Virus record (IMG/VR): IMGVR_UViG_3300046808_000590
Span: 1-25,813 of that record
Strand: one strand, 5' to 3'
Origin: a virus
DNA length: 25,813 nt
Each line of letters starts with the position of its first letter. The first letter of the stretch is position 1. The notes beneath the pieces are model-generated. The model ran no database searches, was not told the origin of the DNA, and saw only the letters and a program-made list of their open reading frames with translations. The translations under genes and the position numbers were made by a program. This document shows positions 4,190 through 25,253 of the stretch, piece by piece.

Positions 4190-6436
4190 TTATGCGCCGA
4201 CCGTGAACCGAACGTCGCCCGTGTGAGCGAAGTCAGCGTCAGCGTACATGTTGAGGATAAGGCGGGTGATGCCCGTCGCAGCCAAAGTGTACGGGTCAAT
4301 GACGAGGTCGGCGGCTCCGCCACCCCAGTATGCCACGTAGCAGTTCTCCATGTTGGCGATGACAATCGGAACGAGGTCAGCCTCGTTGTTGATGGCCGTC
4401 GATGCGGTGGAGTTTGCATAGACCTCGGAGTAGATGTCATAAGACGTGTCGGTGATGAGACCGGCCGCAGCCAAAGACGTGCCGTAGGCGTTGTATCCGA
4501 AGATGGCGTTATCCTGCATGATCGGAATTGCACCGCCGGAAACGGTGGGCGTGTAGCGCGCCGTAGCCAGCAACCCGTGCGACGTGATGAACGCCGTGGA
4601 GTTGGTCAAAGCGTTGGCGTTGCCCAAAGCGCCGATGAGGCCAGAAGCCACCTGCGAGGTCAAGCCTGCCACCGTAGCCGCTGCGGTCTCGTTACGCTTC
4701 ACAAACGTAGAAGCCGCAGCGGCGATGACTTTCACAAGGAACATCTCGTCAATTTGCGCAGCCGACGCCCGAGCGAACTGGCGCTGAACCGTCGCGTCGA
4801 TGCTTTGGTTCATTGCGGCCAGCAACTCGTTGGTGATGTCGATGCGAGACGCAACACGCTGCGGAGACAACTGACGCGCTGCGATGGCAGCAGCACCCGT
4901 AGCCGAAGCGGTTTCGTTGATGATGTCCGTGCCGTCGTTGAGGGAGGGCAGGTTGATGTTTCCGGCGAGGCCGCGCAGGACGTTGGCGCCGGCCTGCTCC
5001 AAGATGGGCGTGGGAACCAAGGCCTCCAACACGTTGGTGTTGGATTGTCCTGGGACGTTCGTGCCGCCGATGGTCGAGGTGTTCCGCAGGATGAAGCCGG
5101 GAATCTGCGCCAAGCCGCGGACGCCTACGCCTGCGTTCTTCAGGTCGGATGCTGCCTGCTGGCTCATCTCCGCCTCGAGGCCGGTGAGGCGACCTGTCAT
5201 CGACTCGCGCACCAACTTGCTGACGCTGTAACGCTCCTGAATTTTTGACTGCTCCACAACTTCGCCCTTGCTTGCAGCAGCGCCGAAAGCGGCACGTGCC
5301 ACCTGCGCCTCCACCTTCTCCGCACGCTCGATTTTGGCGTCGAGTTCTGCGATGTCAGCGGTCAGGGTGTCGATGGTGGTTTCCTCTCCCTCGGTGTATC
5401 CGCGGGCCTGCAACGTGGCTCCCTCGCTCAGGGCAGACAGTTGGCTGATTTTGTTGGCGCGGAGCGCCTTCATGTCATTGAGATTCATGGTCTGGAATTT
5501 ATCTGATTTGCGTTCAAAGATAGGGGTTGCTACAATTTCGGGTTCAGCCTCTGCGACCGGTTCGGGTGCAGGCTCTGGCGCTTGCTCGGTGAACATCGCC
5601 ATCTCCCGCGCTTGCGCGGTGGTCGTAGGCGAAGCGGGATAGGTGCATGGGCTTACGTCGTACAACTGCCCGACCCGGTTGATGGTGCGGGTGCGACGGT
5701 CGCCGCTCCACTCGTCTTCCGCGATGGTAAAGGCGAAGGAGGATTGCGTGATGTCGCCGCGTTGAATGAGCGTGTACAGATCACGCCCCTCCTGCGTGTC
5801 GGCGAGTTTGGCGCGGTAGTGCAGGCCACGCTCGTCGATGGTCAGCGTCAGCGTGTTGTTCGTCGTGCGAGCCAATGGCACGCCGGTGTGGTTGATGAGC
5901 AGGCGCACGTCGTCGTTCGTGCGGCCATCAAATGCCCCCGGCGCCACGCGCTCGGTGAAGTAACCGAGGTCGTACTCATCGCCAAACACCGAGGCGTAGC
6001 CTTCGATGGTCATGTCCTCCTGGGCGCGAACCTCCACGGCGCGCACTTCGACGTTGTCGCCGTAGCGGGCGCGTAGTTGCGCCTCGTTGTTTCTGGTATT
6101 GTCTTCCATGTCGTCGTCGTCTTCTTCGTCTTCTTCGGTTTCGTTCATGTCTTCGACCTTATCGGCTGCCCAAGATAGTCCAGCGTCGCCACCCCAAAGG
6201 AGGTAGGAGATGGTGCCGCAGGCCTCGGTGTCGTCGGGGTTGTAGTATGTGCGGGCGCGGGACAGAAACGAGAACATCCGCACCGTCCGCTCTTCGCTAA
6301 TCATCTCGCGGTTGGCGAGGATGCGCGCCGTCTCCTTGCCCACGTCCGTAGCGCAGCGGCCATCCACCGCGTCGTTCAGTTCGATGCCGCGCCGAGCGTT
6401 GTCGCTGACCTCTTGGGGGTAGTCGTTATACGGCAT
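4190..6436 (-). CDS. Fused HK97-type prohead protease and major capsid protein
   Basis: A single 748-aa chain carries three parts. Residues about 1-95 form a small alpha-helical domain (SDNARRGIELN...WGGDAGLSWAADKV) seen in other phage head proteins. After an acidic linker (99-112), residues about 130-285 form the HK97 prohead protease, with the likely catalytic His183 (INHTGVPLAR) and Ser232/233 (ITQSSFAF). A Pro/Glu linker (286-300) leads to the capsid part from Met317. That part begins with a delta-domain-like coiled coil (317-375), followed by the HK97-fold shell protein to the end. Normally protease and capsid are separate genes. The ATG at 6436 is preferred over an in-frame TTG at 6460 because it overlaps the methyltransferase stop. 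The protease probably cleaves itself and the delta domain away during maturation. Internal initiation at Met317 (5488) is possible. Confidence 0.92.
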   Translation of the reverse strand: MPYNDYPQEVSDNARRGIELNDAVDGRCATDVGKETARILANREMISEERTVRMFSFLSRARTYYNPDDTEACGTISYLLWGGDAGLSWAADKVEDMNETEEDEEDDDDMEDNTRNNEAQLRARYGDNVEVRAVEVRAQEDMTIEGYASVFGDEYDLGYFTERVAPGAFDGRTNDDVRLLINHTGVPLARTTNNTLTLTIDERGLHYRAKLADTQEGRDLYTLIQRGDITQSSFAFTIAEDEWSGDRRTRTINRVGQLYDVSPCTYPASPTTTAQAREMAMFTEQAPEPAPEPVAEAEPEIVATPIFERKSDKFQTMNLNDMKALRANKISQLSALSEGATLQARGYTEGEETTIDTLTADIAELDAKIERAEKVEAQVARAAFGAAASKGEVVEQSKIQERYSVSKLVRESMTGRLTGLEAEMSQQAASDLKNAGVGVRGLAQIPGFILRNTSTIGGTNVPGQSNTNVLEALVPTPILEQAGANVLRGLAGNINLPSLNDGTDIINETASATGAAAIAARQLSPQRVASRIDITNELLAAMNQSIDATVQRQFARASAAQIDEMFLVKVIAAAASTFVKRNETAAATVAGLTSQVASGLIGALGNANALTNSTAFITSHGLLATARYTPTVSGGAIPIMQDNAIFGYNAYGTSLAAAGLITDTSYDIYSEVYANSTASTAINNEADLVPIVIANMENCYVAYWGGGAADLVIDPYTLAATGITRLILNMYADADFAHTGDVRFTVGA

Positions 6437-6437
6437 T
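6426..6437. repeat. 12-bp direct repeat at methyltransferase 3' end
   Basis: TTATACGGCATT on the plus strand, identical to 7033-7044. It spans the stop of the methyltransferase and the start of the protease-capsid gene. The paired copy spans the portal stop and the methyltransferase start. Confidence 0.9.
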
Positions 6438-7043
6438 TGCGTGCTTGTATTTGAGCGCAATCAACTCGTTGGCGTGCGCGTTTTTGTTCAAACGCAAGTC
6501 CAGAACGTACAAATTCAACTCTTTCTGCAATGCGGCGAGGCGCTGCGCGTGCCGCTCCCAAATGTCTTCACAGACAAGCACCCCGCCGTCTTCAAGAAGC
6601 ACGTCGTAATTCTTGAGAAAATACACCTGGGAATCCCACGTATGCGGGCCGTCGTCGATGATGACGTCGAACTTGCCATCAACGTCCAGCAGCATCTGCA
6701 ACGTGTCGTCGCAGTAGGCATCAAACTCCGCACCCCAATAGACCTTTACCTTGTCGATGTTCAATGCTTGCGGTTCCGCTACGCCCGATGCGGTGTTGTC
6801 GATGCCGACCACCGTTTGCACGTAGGGAAGCGATGCAAATGCCCGCAGCGATGCACCCTTGTAGATGCCGATTTCCAGCACTTTTAGGGGTCGGTTTTTG
6901 GTCAGTTGCTGCGCGAAGATGAGGTCATAAACGGGGCCGTAGGAATGCACAGTATTCTTGTCTGACCCGTGCGCGTCAAGCAGGTCGCCCAAACTCGTAG
7001 GCGCTGGTGGAGCCACCTTGTCAGCTTTCTTTTTATACGGCAT
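6426..7043 (-). CDS. Class I SAM-dependent methyltransferase (TylF/CmcI/Methyltransf_24-like)
   Basis: This is a 205-aa protein with a clear SAM-binding fold. Motif I is VLEIGIYKGAS (55-65), the acidic residue ending strand 2 is Asp82 (VVGIDNT), and the FDVIIDDGPHTWDSQ motif (125-139) has the Asp-Asp and His typical of metal-dependent small-molecule or sugar O-methyltransferases. No DNA-methyltransferase target domain is present, so it more likely modifies a small molecule, a glycan or a protein. It lies as an extra gene between portal and protease, where head operons normally have none. The ATG at 7043 is preferred: it overlaps the portal stop by 11 bases. Both portal and methyltransferase end in Asn-Ala-Val-stop and both downstream genes start Met-Pro-Tyr, because each junction carries the same 12-bp sequence. 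Confidence 0.88.
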   Translation of the reverse strand: MPYKKKADKVAPPAPTSLGDLLDAHGSDKNTVHSYGPVYDLIFAQQLTKNRPLKVLEIGIYKGASLRAFASLPYVQTVVGIDNTASGVAEPQALNIDKVKVYWGAEFDAYCDDTLQMLLDVDGKFDVIIDDGPHTWDSQVYFLKNYDVLLEDGGVLVCEDIWERHAQRLAALQKELNLYVLDLRLNKNAHANELIALKYKHANAV

Positions 7044-7044
7044 T
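7033..7044. repeat. 12-bp direct repeat at methyltransferase 5' end
   Basis: Identical to 6426-6437. It contains both the portal stop codon and the methyltransferase start codon, and the two copies bracket the methyltransferase gene exactly. Confidence 0.9.
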
Positions 7045-8223
7045 GCTTGAGATTTTAGCACTGTATTCGGCCATGCTGCCAAGGTCCAGCTGATTGACTT
7101 GCACGAGATGCAGGTCGCCCTGCGCGCCGATGGTGTTGTAGTCCTCCATCCGGCGCACCTCGTTGATGGTGAAGACGCCGTCCGTGAGCATCTGGTGATA
7201 GAAGTCGCTGCGTGCTTTCGTGTCCCCTCGAAGCAAGTCCTGCATATTGAACTTTGCGAAAAAGTCCTCGCGCTCAAATTCCGGGATCAACTTCAGGTTC
7301 ACCTCCTGCTCGATGCGCGTCGCCCACGGCACGATGGTGTGCCGGGCGAAGTTGCGGCCCTGCTCTTCCGTGTTGTTGAATGTGGTCTGCGTCGCCACCC
7401 CCACAATGTAGGGCGGAACGCCCATGATGGTGCAGATGGTTTCGTCCGAATAGCGGCGGGTTTGCAGGAACTGCGCCTGCTCCGGCGGGAGGCTGATTTG
7501 TTGGTATTTGAAGCCAAATGGCAACACCTTCACCCCGATGCCGCCCGTCTGCCACGACGAGCGCACCGCGTTCATCTGCTCGGTTTTGATGGGGTTGTCC
7601 GTGGACAAGATGCCCAGCATCGAGCCGTCAGAGCCAAAGAAATCCGCCCCGTAATTCTCCGCCGCCTTGGCGATGCCGATGTTCTCCTGATGCAACTCCA
7701 CCGGCGACTTGCCGTTGATGCAGCTGATGGCAAGAACGTCCTCGTACTTGATGTCCCCGAACTCCGTGTGCCGCACGAATAGCCGCCCGTTCAGGCGCAT
7801 CAAGGTGCAGTCGTTGGTGTGCAGGATGTGCAGGGCCATTGGCCGGCCGTCGAAGTTGTTGCGCTCGATGTGCGCGTAGGCCTTGCCGTAGGTCAGGGCC
7901 ATCGCGGTGATGGTTTCCCAGAACTCGTAAGGCGTCTGGTATTCGTTCGGTCGGATGGCGCACAGTTGGTGCGCCGGGTGGTTATAGGCCAACCGCCGCC
8001 CGCTGTCGATGCGCTCCAAGACGTTCAGGTTCATGTAGCCAATCGTCTGCGAAATCGCCCGCACGCAGGCGTAGACGGTGGCCACGGTCAGGGCGTTCTC
8101 CTTGCCCACCATTGCCCCCGACCGGGTGCGCATGGTGTAAGCCGTCGAGTTCCAAAACTCGTTGCTGCCCGTGTATGCGACGCGGGCGCGCCGTTGGAAT
8201 AGGGTGCGGATGCGGTCGAACAT
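7033..8223 (-). CDS. Portal protein, HK97 family
   Basis: This 396-aa protein forms the dodecameric ring at the capsid vertex through which DNA is packaged and ejected. Family hallmarks are visible: the N-terminal NALTVATVYACVRAISQTI block, NHPAHQLCAIRPNEYQTPYEFWE, the central ALTYGKAYAHIERN strand region, and the C-terminal VPPYIVG...TTFNNTEEQGRNFARHTIVPWATRIEQEVN stem and clip helices. Length is normal for the family. It begins 24 bases after the terminase large subunit stop and overlaps the methyltransferase by 11 bases. Confidence 0.95.
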   Translation of the reverse strand: MFDRIRTLFQRRARVAYTGSNEFWNSTAYTMRTRSGAMVGKENALTVATVYACVRAISQTIGYMNLNVLERIDSGRRLAYNHPAHQLCAIRPNEYQTPYEFWETITAMALTYGKAYAHIERNNFDGRPMALHILHTNDCTLMRLNGRLFVRHTEFGDIKYEDVLAISCINGKSPVELHQENIGIAKAAENYGADFFGSDGSMLGILSTDNPIKTEQMNAVRSSWQTGGIGVKVLPFGFKYQQISLPPEQAQFLQTRRYSDETICTIMGVPPYIVGVATQTTFNNTEEQGRNFARHTIVPWATRIEQEVNLKLIPEFEREDFFAKFNMQDLLRGDTKARSDFYHQMLTDGVFTINEVRRMEDYNTIGAQGDLHLVQVNQLDLGSMAEYSAKISSNAV

Positions 8224-10114: not shown

Positions 10115-10423
10115 TGGGTTGGTTTGTCCCCAAAGATGGGGAAGAAAAATGTTTTCACGCTACGGGCGGGCGGTTGCGTGCGGGTGAAAATGGGCGGAAA
10201 TGTTATGCGTAATTGCAAAGGGGCGCAAAAGGTTTTCAATAGAATCGACAAAATGATAATGGCGCGCTCTAACCACGATTGTTAAATTCCTTCGCTGCAC
10301 CCCCTACCCCTGCTGAGATTCCGGCCGACTGGTTCAAATAAGAAAGAATCCGAGCAGAAAATGAAGAGTCCGTTTCTTCGTTTCTGTTATTGTTTTGATA
10401 TTACTCAACTGCATTAAGAAGTT
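10115..10423. other. Intergenic region between HNH nuclease and terminase: likely late promoter and cos candidate region
   Basis: This 309-bp stretch contains no supported gene and is the longest non-coding gap in the genome. It is A/T-rich apart from a GC-rich island at 10162-10184. Near the terminase start lie the palindrome CCCCAAAGATGGGG (10129-10142), which on the minus strand contains CATCTTTG, one base from the Bacteroidota -7 element TAnnTTTG, and the palindrome GAAAAATGTTTTC (10144-10156). No convincing -33 element sits at the expected distance. In cos phages with an HNH gene beside the terminase, the cos site often lies here; that assignment is inference. Confidence 0.5.
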
Positions 10424-10702
10424 TCAATACATATCACTTCCCGCCCGCTTCTTGTTGTGGCAACTGTCGCAAAGCGCCTGATGGTTTGTCGTCCGCCAGA
10501 ACCAATCGGGCTTCTGCCTCGCCGGGATGATGTGGTCAACTACGTTCGATAATCTTTCGCACTGCACACACACCGGGTTCTCCTTGAGGAACCACGCGCG
10601 GTACTTCTGCCACTTGTTGGTGTGGTAGATGGCTTCGACCTTGTCCGCTCCCGGAATCGTCGCGTGCCACTTCGGTGGCCGGCCTTTAGGTACGCTTGGC
10701 AT
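10424..10702 (-). CDS. HNH endonuclease, packaging-associated
   Basis: This 92-aa HNH protein has zinc ligands CVQC (45-48) and CDSC (78-81), the catalytic DHI (56-58) and the closing NH...HNKK (73-74, 82-85). The N-terminus (PKGRPPKWHATIPGADK) resembles HNH proteins encoded next to P27-type terminases. In HK97-like phages such proteins are part of the packaging machine and stimulate cos cleavage. It is immediately upstream of the terminase genes and overlaps the glycosyltransferase by 17 bases. A free-standing homing nuclease is less likely given the position. Confidence 0.92.
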   Translation of the reverse strand: MPSVPKGRPPKWHATIPGADKVEAIYHTNKWQKYRAWFLKENPVCVQCERLSNVVDHIIPARQKPDWFWRTTNHQALCDSCHNKKRAGSDMY

Positions 10703-11339
10703 CGGGGAAGTATTTGGCCGCCGCCTCGTTGCGTCTCATCCTCTGCACGGGATCTGCATGAAGTGCTTCCGGCCCTTCGACCAAGTCCTTGAACGCTCGA
10801 TGCAGGAACCCCGGCAATCTCTTATCCCACAGGTGCGCACTCACCTTGATGTCGTCGCAGGTGAGGTCGGGGTCCATGCCCAGCCCATCGAGCGCGTCCC
10901 GCCGGATAAACATAAACCGTCCTTTGACCACCTGCACCGCGATGGTCGTCTCGTGCTTGGCCTTGGTGTGCCGGCTCTCCCAATACCTCCGGCCCTTGGG
11001 TAGCAGCACCCCAAACGCCCCAATGCACTGCACGCCTTTGTGTTCTTCCATGTACGTCTGGCACTCTTCAATCACCGTTGGCCGGGTGAACGTGAGGTCA
11101 TCGTCCATGATGCACACATAGCGCGTGTCCACCTGCATCGCTTCGACCCAACGCGCCCAGCACTTGAGCGAATTGTCCGCGTGAATCATCTTGTGCGCCT
11201 TGCCTTGGTATGCGTGCCGCGTGCCGCTGGCATTGTCAATGACGTGCACCTGCGGGTGGGCCGTCTGGTCAATCGCCCTGCCCACGATGCCCTGCAACTG
11301 CGCTGCTCGCCTCCAGTTGGTGTAGATGATGGTTGTCAT
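10686..11339 (-). CDS. Glycosyltransferase, GT-A fold (family 2-like)
   Basis: This 217-aa protein would transfer a sugar from a nucleotide-sugar donor. It has the GT-A start (TTIIYTNWRRAAQLQGIV, then VHVIDNASG), a metal-binding DDD motif at 79-81 in YVCIMDDDLTF, and a later acidic segment DLTCDDIKVSAHLW that could supply the catalytic base. The chain is short for family 2 but contains the whole catalytic core. There is no membrane segment. The gene overlaps the previous gene as ATGA. Targets could be phage DNA bases, a virion protein or host surface sugars; the sequence does not decide. Confidence 0.85.
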   Translation of the reverse strand: MTTIIYTNWRRAAQLQGIVGRAIDQTAHPQVHVIDNASGTRHAYQGKAHKMIHADNSLKCWARWVEAMQVDTRYVCIMDDDLTFTRPTVIEECQTYMEEHKGVQCIGAFGVLLPKGRRYWESRHTKAKHETTIAVQVVKGRFMFIRRDALDGLGMDPDLTCDDIKVSAHLWDKRLPGFLHRAFKDLVEGPEALHADPVQRMRRNEAAAKYFPDAKRT

Positions 11340-11665
11340 GTCCCAAGCCGTAACGCGTCCAAAATAAGCCCCGCACGCTCCTCCAGCGCCTCGGCCTGCT
11401 GACGCAGCCGAAGGAACGTGGCGACATCCATGTCGGTGGCATGCCGCCTGAACATCTGCGTCAGGCGCCCGTTCTTGCGCATTGGGGTAGACAGCACAGT
11501 TGTCTCAACCTGCCCGGCCTCGATGTAATCCCGTATCGCCTGCGCCTGCTCCATGAACTCCTGCGCCATCTGCTCGGTGGCTGGCATCTCCGTGAACACC
11601 GCGCTGCTGAACCGCCCCTGCCGGGTGATGCGGTACTGTTCCAGGTCCTCGTAATCGTATTTCAT
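11336..11665 (-). CDS. Hypothetical protein, helical
   Basis: This 109-aa protein is not recognised. It is mostly charged and helical, with two probable helices at about 30-52 (ATEQMAQEFMEQAQAIRDYIEAG) and about 75-105 (DVATFLRLRQQAEALEERAGLILDALRLG). There is no signal peptide, membrane segment or cysteine motif. The ATG at 11665 is chosen over an in-frame TTG three codons upstream because it overlaps the preceding stop as ATGA. It sits between the PAPS-reductase-like gene and a glycosyltransferase in the replication operon. Confidence 0.78.
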   Translation of the reverse strand: MKYDYEDLEQYRITRQGRFSSAVFTEMPATEQMAQEFMEQAQAIRDYIEAGQVETTVLSTPMRKNGRLTQMFRRHATDMDVATFLRLRQQAEALEERAGLILDALRLGT

Positions 11666-12540
11666 TCTTGGCAACTTGAATAAATGTCACATGATTCATC
11701 TTCGAATAGGTCGAACTGCACAGTCGTGTTTTGCCGCTCATCTCGCGCTGTGCCGTTCCATTTCTTTGCCGTTTCTAGCATCTCGGTCGCGCTGCGGTTG
11801 TGGCGGTACATGGTCATGCGCTCAGGTACGACCTTGCCCTTCTCCATCATAACGGCCTGCCGCTCCATCGGCACGAAATTCTCAAACCTCTCCATGCGCA
11901 ACGCAAAGTCGAAAATTGACGAATCTTCCTTGTATGCCGCAAATAGCGACCTGTCGCCCTTCTTGTAGCAACCCATGCAGTTGCCGAGATACGACGGTAT
12001 TTCTAGCCGAAAAGGCATCCCTGACCAGTACAAATTGACCCTCGGCTTATCCGTTGGTATCCAGCTAATGAGCGGATATACGATTTTGCGCTGCTTGGCT
12101 TCGACGCTCATCCGGTCGAACTCGTCTTTGCGAATGCCGATGGCGGTGTGGTAGTCCGCTCCCCAAAGGTCGATGGCGTACTTGCGAATGGGATTGGCCT
12201 TCAAATCTCCGCTGCACCATGGCGATGCTGGGTTAGGCAAGCCTCTTTTTTTTATGCCGCGCTCAAATGGCTCGCCGTTGCGGCTGGCCCCATGATAATC
12301 CGTGATCTTGTAGCCCACGCCCTCACCGTGCGCATTGGCGTGTGACTCAAGCCAAACCAAATCCAGACCGAAATGCCGGTCACATCGATGGGCAAATTCA
12401 AGAGTTTTCTCATGCTCCCAGCCTGTATTGGCAAAGACAAAAACCAACTCCGTAAAGCCTCGTTCATAGGCGTGTCGTTTCAGCCATTGGGCCATAAATG
12501 CAGAGGTTTCGCCTCCGCTGAAGGAGACCAGCAACTTCAT
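11662..12540 (-). CDS. PAPS-reductase-like ATP-pyrophosphatase (adenine nucleotide alpha hydrolase fold)
   Basis: This 292-aa protein begins with the PP-loop SFSGGETS (6-13), followed by FVFANTGWEHEKTLEF, which is typical of the phosphoadenosine phosphosulfate reductase family and of phage relatives of unknown substrate. Cys109 (SPWCSGDLK) and a CxxC pair (Cys188, Cys191 in GNCMGCYKKG) could bind a metal or take part in sulfur chemistry. The family activates a substrate with ATP; members include sulfate assimilation enzymes, tRNA thiolases and DndC of the phosphorothioate DNA system. No dndD or dndE partner is visible. The gene overlaps both neighbours as ATGA within the replication operon, suggesting a nucleic-acid modification or sulfur-supply role, which is inference. 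Confidence 0.88.
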   Translation of the reverse strand: MKLLVSFSGGETSAFMAQWLKRHAYERGFTELVFVFANTGWEHEKTLEFAHRCDRHFGLDLVWLESHANAHGEGVGYKITDYHGASRNGEPFERGIKKRGLPNPASPWCSGDLKANPIRKYAIDLWGADYHTAIGIRKDEFDRMSVEAKQRKIVYPLISWIPTDKPRVNLYWSGMPFRLEIPSYLGNCMGCYKKGDRSLFAAYKEDSSIFDFALRMERFENFVPMERQAVMMEKGKVVPERMTMYRHNRSATEMLETAKKWNGTARDERQNTTVQFDLFEDESCDIYSSCQE

Positions 12541-13211
12541 GGCTTCTTACGTTCTGCACGCATTTGTGCCCTGACCAATTGCCGCATCTGCTGCTTCACC
12601 TTGGCGTCCCGGCGGGCAACGTCACGGCGTGCCATGGCCTCACGTTCGTCAAACGTGATGCGGCCATCCGCGCCGGCGATGAATGTTGCCAGTGATCGCG
12701 GCGCACGCTCTCGGTCGCCGATGGCGTCCTGCAATGGCACTTGGAACAGCGTGGCCGTCTCTCGCTGGTGCGCTGTGGCCTGCTCGCCGTGCAGTTGACG
12801 CATGGCCTCCACCTTGCGCTCGTCGTAGGCTTGAAAGCACTGTATCAACCACTCAAGGTTGGTGTTGTTGTAATGCTTCTGCACCCGGCCCGCCTCCATC
12901 TCGTAGAGGCACAGTTTCCAATCCTCAAGCGTGAAGTTGCCGAACTCATCGGTCAGCCGCTTGGCAGCCCGTGCAATGCCTTCCTCGCTCTTGATGCCGT
13001 TTGGCGCGCCTATCATTTCCAGCGTAGCGGATAGCAGTTTGACCAATGCTGCTCGCGTGGCTTCCGGCTGCTCCCGTAATGCCCTCTGGACGTTAGCCCC
13101 AAATATCGCGGTCCTTAAGGACGTCGGAGGGGTGTTTGTACTTACCGCTTGAATGGAAGTAACTACCATTCCTCTTCCCGGACTTGTTCCAACCGTTGTT
13201 AGCTGATTCAT
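12537..13211 (-). CDS. Hypothetical replication-operon protein
   Basis: This 224-aa protein is not firmly recognised. The central part (TLEDWKLCLYEMEAGRVQKHYNNTNLEWLIQCFQAYDERKVEAMRQLHGE) resembles proteins encoded directly after the initiator in phages of Bacteroidota. The C-terminal 45 residues are very basic (REAMARRDVARRDAKVKQQMRQLVRAQMRAERKKP), likely a nucleic-acid-binding helix. The ATG at 13211 makes it overlap the preceding gene by 119 bases, unusually long here. A second ATG at 13169 would still overlap by 77 bases, and no later start precedes the conserved region. By position it could act in replication, for example as a helicase-loader-like factor, but no loader motif is visible. 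Confidence 0.72.
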   Translation of the reverse strand: MNQLTTVGTSPGRGMVVTSIQAVSTNTPPTSLRTAIFGANVQRALREQPEATRAALVKLLSATLEMIGAPNGIKSEEGIARAAKRLTDEFGNFTLEDWKLCLYEMEAGRVQKHYNNTNLEWLIQCFQAYDERKVEAMRQLHGEQATAHQRETATLFQVPLQDAIGDRERAPRSLATFIAGADGRITFDEREAMARRDVARRDAKVKQQMRQLVRAQMRAERKKP

Positions 13212-13854
13212 CTTGGTATTTGCTTTCTCGTTGTATCCAATCTCTTGCTGTGGCCTTCCAGTCCTTCATGGGCTTTCTGGCCTTGCCAATAACCCACCCG
13301 ACGCTTTCGTAGTAGTTGTAAAACCGCTCGCCCAAGTCGGAGGTCTGACCGGCCGCCACGAAGGCGTCAATAACCGTCTGGAGGTCTTTTGGGGTTGCCT
13401 CTTTTTTTGGTTTGGCCTCTATACTCTTTGATACTTCTTTACTTATTCTATTCTCTTCTATACTCTCCGCAACTGTGGTTGCTTCTTGGCGCATCTCTGG
13501 GCGCAACTTTTGCGCCTCTGGTTGCAACTCTTGCGCCTCTGGTTGCTTGCGCCTCTGGTTGCTTGTTCCTGTAGGCGCAACTTTTGCGCCTGTAGGCGCA
13601 ACTTCGACAGACAGGCGTCGCTTGTGGCCGTAACCCTCGGTCACGATGTGGCCGCTTTGCTCCAACTGATGACGCATCTTGCGGACGTGCTGCGGAGTGC
13701 AGCGCAGAGATTCAGCCAGGAAGTGGTCGCCCGCCCAACTCGCTCCGTCCTGCTTGCTCAATGCCGCCAAGCGAGCAAGAAACACGCGATGGAGCGGTGG
13801 AAGGTCAAGCGCCCATATTTCGGCAGGCAGCCAGATGCCGTTGGCCTCGTTCAT
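13093..13854 (-). CDS. Winged-helix replication initiation-like protein
   Basis: This 253-aa protein probably initiates phage DNA replication. Residues about 1-80 form a winged helix like those of phage replisome organisers (LPPLHRVFLARLAALSK...FLAESLRCTPQHVRKMRHQLEQSGHIV). A low-complexity linker (85-155) rich in Gln, Glu, Pro and Lys follows. Residues about 155-205 (LQTVIDAFVAAG...FYNYYESVGWVIGKARKPMKDWKATARDWI) are a C-terminal module common in such proteins. The linker DNA carries the repeated sequences listed separately, so the origin may lie inside the gene, as in phage lambda O. It starts six bases after the ribbon-helix-helix gene and no helicase or polymerase gene accompanies it, so host enzymes must be recruited. 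Confidence 0.87.
   Translation of the reverse strand: MNEANGIWLPAEIWALDLPPLHRVFLARLAALSKQDGASWAGDHFLAESLRCTPQHVRKMRHQLEQSGHIVTEGYGHKRRLSVEVAPTGAKVAPTGTSNQRRKQPEAQELQPEAQKLRPEMRQEATTVAESIEENRISKEVSKSIEAKPKKEATPKDLQTVIDAFVAAGQTSDLGERFYNYYESVGWVIGKARKPMKDWKATARDWIQRESKYQDESANNGWNKSGKRNGSYFHSSGKYKHPSDVLKDRDIWG
13500..13590. repeat. Iteron-like repeats in the initiator gene: candidate replication origin
   Basis: Three perfect 16-bp copies of TTGCGCCTCTGGTTGC lie at 13510-13525, 13531-13546 and 13547-13562. They are flanked by two perfect 17-bp palindromes GGCGCAACTTTTGCGCC at 13500-13516 and 13574-13590. The second and third 16-mers are 16 bases apart and the palindromes 74 bases apart, so the identical DNA is read in different frames. 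The repeats are therefore conserved as DNA, not as peptide. Confidence 0.7.
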
Positions 13855-13859
13855 CGCGG

Positions 13860-14003
13860 TCAGGATTTCAGGCCTTTTTCAAGCGCCTCACGGACGACGT
13901 CGCTAAACTTCCGCTTGCTGAATTTGGCAATCGTCAGGGCCAGTTCTCGCGTCTCTTCCGTGACGCGGATGTGGATGTTCTTTGGGTAGTTGTTGGCTTT
14001 CAT
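13860..14003 (-). CDS. Ribbon-helix-helix (Arc/CopG-like) DNA-binding protein
   Basis: This is a 47-aa gene. The protein has the minimal ribbon-helix-helix layout: a short strand with alternating residues (NIHIRVTEE, 9-17), helix 1 (TRELALTIAKFSK, 18-30), and helix 2 starting at the conserved turn KFSDVVREALEKGL (32-45). Such proteins dimerise, insert the strand pair into the DNA major groove and usually repress their own promoter. It is the first gene of the replication operon, directly downstream of a promoter flanked by a perfect inverted repeat. The stop lies five bases before the initiator start. A role as autoregulator or early/late switch is inferred. Confidence 0.87.
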   Translation of the reverse strand: MKANNYPKNIHIRVTEETRELALTIAKFSKRKFSDVVREALEKGLKS

Positions 14004-14007
14004 GTCG

Positions 14008-14039
14008 CAATGTTACACCGATATACTTTCCCATCCAAA
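14008..14039 (-). promoter_or_regulatory. Bacteroidota-type promoter of the replication operon
   Basis: On the minus strand TTTG (14039-14036) is followed after 20 bases by TAACATTG (14015-14008), one mismatch from the Bacteroidota -7 consensus TAnnTTTG at a standard spacing. The ATG of the ribbon-helix-helix gene is only four bases past the -7 element, so the transcript would be nearly leaderless. Confidence 0.62.
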
Positions 14040-14053
14040 CATTCCGTGTAACA
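14011..14053. promoter_or_regulatory. Candidate operator: perfect 8-bp inverted repeat flanking the promoter
   Basis: TGTTACAC (14011-14018) and its exact reverse complement GTGTAACA (14046-14053) are 27 bases apart. The inner arm overlaps the -7 element and the outer arm lies just upstream of the -33 element, so bound protein would cover the promoter. The adjacent ribbon-helix-helix gene is the obvious candidate ligand. Confidence 0.6.
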
Positions 14054-14060
14054 AGTTATG

Positions 14061-14094
14061 AACAACAAAAAAGGCGACCCGTAGGCCGCCCTTT
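14061..14094 (-). terminator. Rho-independent terminator with UACG tetraloop
   Basis: On the minus strand AAAGGGCGGCC (14094-14084) pairs with GGTCGCCTTTT (14079-14069) through two G-U wobbles, enclosing the tetraloop TACG in a C(UACG)G context. The run of six T (14072-14067) both closes the stem and forms the tract, which continues as GTTGTT. It ends the operon that starts at about 17030 and separates it from the replication operon. Confidence 0.85.
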
Positions 14095-23853: not shown

Positions 23854-24374
23854 TAGTTGTTGTTATTGTTGAACGTAGCGTCGTTGGTGTCGAGAACCGC
23901 CTTGTAGATGGTCCCGTCGCCCTCAAAGTTAACCGAGAACGAGGCCACTTCGTTCAACCCCGCACTCTCTTCGTACGTGGTGATGTAGCCCTTGCCCCAG
24001 TACATGATGTCCCCATCCACGCCCGTGGTCCAAGCCAACTTGATTTTGGTCTTGTTTTTCCAGAGCGTGAACAGGTCGGCGCCGGACTTCACGCTGCTGG
24101 ACAGGCCGTACTCGATGAGGCCGTCGCACGCCATTGTCCAGGACAGCGATGAGGTGAGGATTTCCCGCTCTCCGTCGTTGTCTTTGGTGGTGGCGTCGAT
24201 GACTTCCATCGAGCCGCTGAACGTGCCGGACGTCGCGCAGGCGACGATTTCCCACGTGTCGTTCTCGCTCGTGTTGTCTCCGTAAGTTCCGCCGCTGAAA
24301 GTGCCGCTATTGGCGCTCTCGTTGCTGATGTAAATGCCGATGGCATTACTCCTGATTTTCCCCGTTGTAGGCAT
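23853..24374 (-). CDS. Major tail (tube) protein
   Basis: This 173-aa protein is of the TP901-1 tube type: MPTTGKIRSNAIGIYISNES start, Gly/Ser/Thr-rich strands (GTFSGG, SGTFSGSMEVIDATTKDNDGEREILTSSLSWTMACDGL) and a C-terminal strand pair (GLNEVASFSVNFEGDGTIYKA). It ends in an unusual run of five Asn. Length is normal. Position directly before the chaperones and tape measure supports the call. Its first 29 bases overlap the end of the glycosyltransferase gene in another frame. Confidence 0.9.
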   Translation of the reverse strand: MPTTGKIRSNAIGIYISNESANSGTFSGGTYGDNTSENDTWEIVACATSGTFSGSMEVIDATTKDNDGEREILTSSLSWTMACDGLIEYGLSSSVKSGADLFTLWKNKTKIKLAWTTGVDGDIMYWGKGYITTYEESAGLNEVASFSVNFEGDGTIYKAVLDTNDATFNNNNN

Positions 24375-25095
24375 GGTGATCTAAATTTTGAAAGGATTTG
24401 AGTTGTGAAAGTTCGGGAAAGCTGCCGACCACCTCCGTCGGTGGGAACCGATCGGTCTTGCGCGCAAACCCCTCGAACTTGTTGATGTTCTCTTTGGTCT
24501 TCAGGTCAATGATGAGCGGCGTCTTGGTCTTGAGCAGGTACGTCAACTGGTCCGTGCAGCGCCAAATGTTCGCCCTAAACGACGCGTCCATTCCGCTCAT
24601 CAGTTCGCCGTCGTAGCACCGCCCCAAATGCTTTTGGCATTTGACCAGCAACTCGCGTCTGGTGCATCGCCCGACGTTGCTTTGACCCCGCCCCCCGAAT
24701 AGATGCGTGCGCCCGGTGGCTGCGTCGATGATGTAGAACTGGTCGTGTGCAATCCATGCCCGCCCGGCCTTGAGTTCCTTGGCCATCAACTCCGCCCAAT
24801 CTTCGCGCAGGATGTTGTCCGAGCAGTACTCCATGAAGTAGTCGAACTCAAGGTTGCGCAGCATCCACCGCAGGCCCATCTCGAACTTGGTGCCGATGGG
24901 CGAGTTCTTGAAGGGGAAGTGCAGGTAGCCGCGCTTTTCGCAGACGGCAGGCAGGTCTTTGTCGTCGCCAATCACCACCACCTCCGTCTCGATGCCGAGG
25001 CGTTTGAACTGCTCGCGCACCCGGTCGAGCGCGTCCATCGCAATGTTGCGAATGCGGGCGCGCTTGTACACGGGAAAGTGAATTGCAACCTTCAT
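24346..25095 (-). CDS. Glycosyltransferase, GT-A fold, in the tail module
   Basis: This 249-aa protein opens MKVAIHFPVYKRARIRNIAMDAL, followed by EVVVIGDD, a GT-A nucleotide-sugar-binding pattern. SDN at 92-94 (YFMEYCSDNILRED) takes the place of the DxD metal-binding motif. HDQFYIIDAATGRTHLFGG...GMDASFRANIW resembles the acceptor-side region of small family 2 enzymes. No membrane segment is present. It sits between a 44-aa basic protein and the tail tube, overlapping the tube gene by 29 bases, so it may decorate a virion protein. It is not closely similar to the other glycosyltransferase at 10686-11339. Confidence 0.83.
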   Translation of the reverse strand: MKVAIHFPVYKRARIRNIAMDALDRVREQFKRLGIETEVVVIGDDKDLPAVCEKRGYLHFPFKNSPIGTKFEMGLRWMLRNLEFDYFMEYCSDNILREDWAELMAKELKAGRAWIAHDQFYIIDAATGRTHLFGGRGQSNVGRCTRRELLVKCQKHLGRCYDGELMSGMDASFRANIWRCTDQLTYLLKTKTPLIIDLKTKENINKFEGFARKTDRFPPTEVVGSFPELSQLKSFQNLDHHAYNGENQE

Positions 25096-25118: not shown

Positions 25119-25253
25119 TTACCTGCCTTGCCCGCCGTAGGGTTTGCGGTAGTTGCGTGAGTTCTTGTTCGTGCTGGTCTTCGTCTTCGCGTGAACGCCC
25201 GGCCGGCTGACTTCGCGCAGCACCTTGGTGTGGGTGGTTTGGGATTTCGCCAT
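25119..25253 (-). CDS. Small basic protein, 44 aa
   Basis: This gene starts in the stop of the dockerin-like gene (TGATG). The peptide is highly basic and polar (MAKSQTTHTKVLREVSRPG, then HAKTKTSTNKNSRNYRKPYGGQGR) with no hydrophobic core. It resembles short conserved proteins I associate with phages of Bacteroidota; the function is unknown. It may bind nucleic acid or be a disordered virion component. Confidence 0.72.
   Translation of the reverse strand: MAKSQTTHTKVLREVSRPGVHAKTKTSTNKNSRNYRKPYGGQGR

Follow-up and report, generated by a model that had tools for sequence, protein, structure and literature searches.

The replication initiator gene in this phage DNA likely contains its own origin of replication. 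In the window (the whole stretch of 25,813 nucleotides that was analysed), seven iterons and an A/T-rich block lie inside a gene encoding a 253-residue initiator. Judged from sequence, this arrangement is best explained as an intragenic theta-type origin, working like the lambda origin in O and the one in pSK41 rep, with a probability of about 0.88. A preliminary description had proposed a likely replication origin here, and the proposal is supported by initiator homology, the adjoining A/T-rich block and the joint change of array and winged helix among relatives. In a group of uncultured phages, this region would be where replication likely starts. Its features are as follows.

13093-13854, minus strand: initiator gene, 253 aa (open reading frame and PHROG 270 match)
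13591-13842, minus strand: N-terminal winged helix-turn-helix, residues 5-88 (AlphaFold2 pLDDT ~90 over most of it; PDB winged-helix matches)
13411-13590, minus strand: predicted disordered linker, residues 89-148 (AlphaFold2 pLDDT < 50)
13198-13392, minus strand: C-terminal helical domain, residues ~155-219 (AlphaFold2 pLDDT mostly 80-88)
13584-13602, minus strand: iteron unit 1, GTTGCGCCTACAGGCGCAA
13563-13581, minus strand: iteron unit 2, GTTGCGCCTACAGGAACAA
13547-13565, minus strand: iteron unit 3, CAAGCAACCAGAGGCGCAA
13531-13549, minus strand: iteron unit 4, CAAGCAACCAGAGGCGCAA
13510-13528, minus strand: iteron unit 5, GTTGCAACCAGAGGCGCAA
13489-13507, minus strand: iteron unit 6, GTTGCGCCCAGAGATGCGC, right half degenerate
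13467-13485, minus strand: iteron unit 7, GAAGCAACCACAGTTGCGG, degenerate, adjoining the A/T-rich block
13417-13466, minus strand: A/T-rich candidate DNA-unwinding element, A-rich on the coding strand
13467-14063, no strand assigned: block replaced as a unit in two relatives, L002 and L004 (small upstream gene, winged helix and iterons)
13860-14003, minus strand: gene for a 47-aa ribbon-helix-helix-like protein, inside the swapped block (open reading frame; assigned by eye)
12537-13211, minus strand: 224-aa gene downstream of the initiator gene and overlapping it (placed by synteny)

The array occupies 13467-13602 and is composed of seven units of ~19 bp. The core of the unit is GTTGCGCC-TACA-GGCGCAA, and some copies are degenerate. 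The units start at nucleotides 252, 273, 289, 305, 326, 347 and 369 of the gene, at steps of 21, 16, 16, 21, 21 and 22 bp. They lie in frames 0, 0, 1, 2, 2, 2 and 0, together spanning all three reading frames. As the palindromic half-sites of units 6 and 7 are degenerate, there may be less than the full seven functional sites. A perfect 16-mer (TTGCGCCTCTGGTTGC on the plus strand) occurs three times, at 13510-13525, 13531-13546 and 13547-13562, and the 17-bp palindrome GGCGCAA-CTT-TTGCGCC (7+3+7) occurs twice, at 13500-13516 and 13574-13590, 74 bp apart. The repeat DNA is translated as QPEAQ in two copies and NQRRK in one, and the palindrome as EAQKLRP in one copy versus GAKVAP in the other. 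These repeats, palindromes and peptide readings (the first palindrome given there as AQKLRP) had all been correctly described earlier. The spacing of 16 bases then given for adjacent 16-mers is right for only one step; their starts are 21 and then 16 apart. The earlier location, 13500-13590, does contain repeats but is too narrow, as the units occupy 13467-13602 and the A/T-rich block extends the region to 13417.

The repeats cannot be due to chance. The observed repeats, inverted repeats and longest exact repeat (20 nt) were reached by none of 5000 codon shuffles, and protein-preserving synonymous shuffles gave the same result (0/5000). The window contains 17 copies of TTGCGCC, where 9.2 would be expected, and seven of them are found within 13500-13601. 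A second iteron cluster was not found elsewhere in the window, where scattered weak matches occur at chance level.

In a profile search, the initiator matched PHROG 270 (E 1.1e-7), a family annotated ‘replication initiation protein’, as well as three PHROG families named ‘replication initiation O-like’. PHROG 270 was matched by all 37 aligned relatives scanned (E <= 1e-3), and families named ‘O-like’ are also among the matches of these relatives. The winged helix is presumed to be the iteron-binding domain. The Pfam family HTH_36 was found in 33 of the 37 relatives; the window's own protein scores below threshold. The DNA for the predicted disordered linker holds the A/T-rich block and the larger part of the array. 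The C-terminal helical domain, which is presumed to recruit host replication proteins, matches PHROG 15768 and 28809, both of unknown function. Neither the lambda O model (Phage_rep_O; E <= 0.01) nor, at the sequence level, a RepA_N domain is among the Pfam families listed for these relatives. The structures 4pql, 4pt7, 4pta and 5kbj are RepA_N structures. The winged helix matches 4pql with a Z score of 9.0 over 89 residues, a score that unrelated winged helices equal. RepA_N descent by fold is not claimed, as repressor and other winged helices score equally.

By nearest-neighbour energy, no other 50-bp stretch of the 25.8-kb window is as unstable as 13417-13466, which directly adjoins the array. 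Most related loci likewise have an A/T-rich block immediately after the array, and it is among the least stable stretches of the locus, if not the least stable of all. Its synonymous sites are also conserved in several groups of relatives. In three distant relatives, L018 (gene nt 370-420), L042 (gene nt 370-430) and L134 (1020-1063), the block itself consists of repeats 12-13 bp long, such as CTACTAATACAG/TTACTAGTTCAG/TTACTAATTCAA or GAACCTATCAAT, which are possibly single-strand binding motifs. The GC-skew analysis proposed in the preliminary description gave no signal at the array: cumulative skew has its maximum at 10262 and its minimum at 25136, with no extremum at 13.5 kb, and was dropped as origin evidence.

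The array may instead be a site for the same winged-helix protein with another role, as an intragenic operator repressing the replication operon or as a partition (centromere-like) site. All evidence for protein-specific DNA sites applies equally to such roles, and the PDB fold matches of the winged helix include those of repressors and plasmid centromere proteins. A small regulator-like gene is located just upstream. However, an operator needs no strongly destabilised block fixed alongside it, yet most relatives have one, and the conservation of synonymous sites in that block argues against both roles. In addition, the homology is to replication initiators, and a pure operator is normally located at the promoter, not 250 bp into the gene. 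We consider an operator or partition site unlikely.

Comparison with relatives, gathered by three scans of viral contigs, revealed a DNA sequence maintained independently of the peptide it encodes. Synonymous (pS) and nonsynonymous (pN) differences are uncorrected Nei-Gojobori proportions; because pairs from the same group are interdependent, pooled values are descriptive. Among the window, L003, L008 and L014, pS is 0.041 in the array and 0.667 in the winged-helix part, whereas pN is alike, 0.124 and 0.138, respectively. For the pair of the window and L003, the two regions differ in synonymous change (Fisher p 7e-10) and not in nonsynonymous change (p 0.59). Synonymous change is similarly low in the arrays of the L009 group (0.017 versus 0.148), the L087 group (0.000 versus 0.426), the L103 group (0.058 versus 0.407) and L016/L069 (0.000 versus 0.709). 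The fall is weaker in the L108 group, from a pS of 0.188 to 0.085 in the array, and L002 and L004 are too nearly identical for these proportions to inform. Synonymous sites in the array are thus nearly frozen, yet amino acids change there as often as elsewhere, which indicates that selection acts on the array DNA, as had been claimed earlier. Relatives keep the DNA repeats and the 16/21/22-bp spacing while the peptide changes, in line with the earlier expectation of conserved repeats with variable linker peptides and the reverse of the pattern (peptide retained, repeats lost) that had been named as a refutation.

The same data make it very improbable that the repeats are slippage-derived tandem duplications in an unconstrained linker, or are selected as peptide, with no function as DNA: the linker is predicted to be disordered and the 21-bp steps preserve the frame, but the 16- and 22-bp steps break it, the array's synonymous change is far below that of the flanks with nonsynonymous change alike, and unit spacing is retained between groups whose arms differ entirely.

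Arrays of several types are found among relatives. L002 and L004 carry seven units of a different sequence, GTTCC-TACA-GGAAC, at steps of 16, 16, 16, 21, 21 and 21 bp. More distant relatives contain at least three palindromic units, such as TCCCCAAAATGGGGA, TCGCCAAAATGGCGA or CGTAAAATTTTTACG, at 22-bp steps, which place successive units in three different frames. The homologue in Psychrobacter phage Y8A contains three GTGACA-NNN-TGTCAY palindromes and 12-bp repeats inside the gene. All three palindromes share one frame, and the least stable stretch found lies elsewhere than downstream of the array. Repeat finding revealed no clear array in two Vibrio phage homologues (L132 and L133).

The array and the winged helix are inherited together. 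Across 51 members, 6-mer similarity of the arrays is correlated with winged-helix identity (partial Mantel r 0.754, reached in 0/2000 permutations) and not with C-terminal identity (r -0.055, p 0.93). The L002 contig is 92-93% identical to the window on both flanks of a replaced block of ~600 bp. Its initiator gene is 59% identical in DNA to that of the window over the first 249 nt and 97.7% identical over the last 351. Conversely, in L008-L015 a winged helix and array of the window's type precede an unrelated C-terminal domain. Behind closely similar winged helices and arrays, the C-terminal domain is of one of two unrelated types, ‘..GW..PMKDWKAAARGWI’ or ‘..ALHKLHN..AI..IQ..IANGWQGLF’; initiator genes with the two types are those of L008-L015, L103-L107, L069 and L077. 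Module boundaries coincide with the array and A/T-rich block, which would also be expected if the array were mainly a recombination hot spot for exchange of initiator modules and its low synonymous divergence reflected recent sharing; however, recent sharing would reduce pS and pN alike, whereas in the four-sequence group the array and its flanks have equal pN, and the arms of L002 and the window are wholly different despite nearly identical flanks, so that this fails as the sole explanation and is highly unlikely.

Returning to an intragenic origin, the winged helix and its matching palindromic array may constitute an exchangeable ‘origin-specificity cassette’ that moves between phages independently of the two unrelated types of recruiting domain at the C-terminus. 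The conserved combination of 21/22-bp (full-turn) and 16-bp (half-turn) spacing could then reflect an initiator complex alternating between faces of the DNA, unlike the helically phased iteron origins that are known. This proposal is tentative, and we regard it as one possibility that may well prove wrong.

A mechanism can be proposed by analogy with lambda O and pSK41 Rep. The N-terminal winged helix would bind the seven hyphenated-palindromic iterons in its own gene, probably as one dimer per unit. The resulting nucleoprotein complex would strain and open the adjacent ~50-bp A/T-rich block (13417-13466). The C-terminal domain, tethered by the disordered linker, may then recruit a helicase or its loader (or a primase) and the host replisome. 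Protein binding, melting, helicase recruitment and origin activity are what we infer from the sequence features. This gene can accommodate an origin because almost any peptide is acceptable in the linker, and 16/21/22-bp spacing is read in different frames harmlessly. The gene shows how a DNA site can be carried in all three reading frames by way of a disordered linker.

Origins inside initiator genes are well established in lambda, SPP1, pSK41 and repC. In lambda, the iterons are 18-bp hyphenated inverted repeats that lie inside O with a 39-bp A/T region (PMC6022878, PMC5043065). O binds the iterons as dimers, the neighboring A/T region is opened, and recruitment is mediated by the C-terminal domain (PMC6022878, PMC5043065), which a flexible linker joins to the N-terminal DNA-binding domain (PMC6022878, PMC5043065, PMC7466680). 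The locus in the window resembles lambda and lambdoid phages in its ~18-bp hyphenated palindromes inside the initiator gene, its adjoining A/T-rich block and its two domains with a linker. The lambda parallel drawn in the preliminary description therefore stands for the architecture and does not extend to the Pfam lambda O family, which none of the 37 members matched. By sequence, the initiator is located outside that family. Unlike in lambda, no P homologue is recognised downstream, and there are seven units at 16/21/22 bp compared to four in lambda and six in Stx phages.

In rep of the staphylococcal plasmid pSK41 (RepA_N), Rep boxes are central in the gene, the origin DNA encodes the linker and the N-terminal domain is a winged helix (PMC5703833). 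The pSK41 Rep C-terminal domain binds DnaG (PMC5703833). There is also a precedent for an N-terminal domain being exchanged along with its origin, and with the same HTH_36 domain type: in the chimeric pPR9 initiator, a block of ~500 bp containing the N-terminal domain (HTH of pfam13730, that is HTH_36) and the origin was exchanged, and the C-terminal domain is >97% identical (PMC5703833). The window is similar to pSK41 and pPR9 in that origin DNA encodes the linker and that the N-terminal domain and origin are exchanged while the C-terminal domain is kept. It differs from these staphylococcal plasmids in that it has no RepA_N match by sequence and its winged-helix fold similarity is not specific. 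In SPP1, oriL lies inside gene 38 and combines gp38-bound repeats with an A/T-rich unwinding element (PMC6316719). Another origin, oriR, is present in SPP1, whereas no second iteron cluster was found in the window. In RepABC plasmids, oriV lies inside repC at an A+T-rich block, and silent changes there abolish replication (PMC3155836). Unlike the array here, p42d repC lacks iterons. Less usual in the present group are the breadth of helix/array pair types on one scaffold and the conserved mix of half-turn and full-turn spacing. Among the open-licence papers searched, none was found to describe intragenic origins with co-varying iterons for this phage group.

Dozens of related phages share this layout with differing pairs of protein and putative binding sites. 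They constitute a natural experiment in which distinct recognition-helix/iteron pairs are placed on one protein scaffold, in one case on a nearly identical genomic background. They make it possible to test directly how protein and DNA recognise each other at intragenic origins and how phages exchange origin specificity.

The neighboring genes were also analysed. The 47-aa ribbon-helix-helix-like protein is a possible regulator. The downstream 224-aa gene occupies the position of ‘replication protein P’ in Psychrobacter phage Y8A (synteny), and the order of the P position followed by PAPS reductase is common to Y8A and the window. Profile comparison revealed no sequence relation between the 224-aa protein and Y8A ‘replication protein P’; it had no fold match, and its profile hits are weak (DUF6633 and others). 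That it is a helicase loader is possible but unproven. A scan of bacterial genomes with the initiator gave two weak matches, one in Spirosoma and one in an Acidobacteria MAG, both to the C-terminal part only, and these do not establish a host. Similarity of the terminase was rejected as a pointer to the host because it is too broad.

The contig ends, 1-247 and 25567-25813, are 96.8% identical over 247 bp. The contig, a virus record from a metagenomic collection, is therefore probably a near-complete genome (~25.6 kb) whose assembly crosses a junction that varies between strains. The PAPS-reductase-like gene is located at 11662-12540, two genes downstream of the initiator. At this position, the otherwise 93% identical L002 contig (6324-7208) encodes a protein with cytosine-methyltransferase-like motifs, recognised by eye. 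At 4190-6460, a head maturation protease and the major head protein are seemingly fused in a single 756-aa frame. A methyltransferase-like gene (6426-7277, by eye) lies between the portal and capsid genes. Glycosyltransferase-like genes are found at 10686-11339 (Pfam) and 24346-25095 (by eye), in a phage of only ~25 kb.
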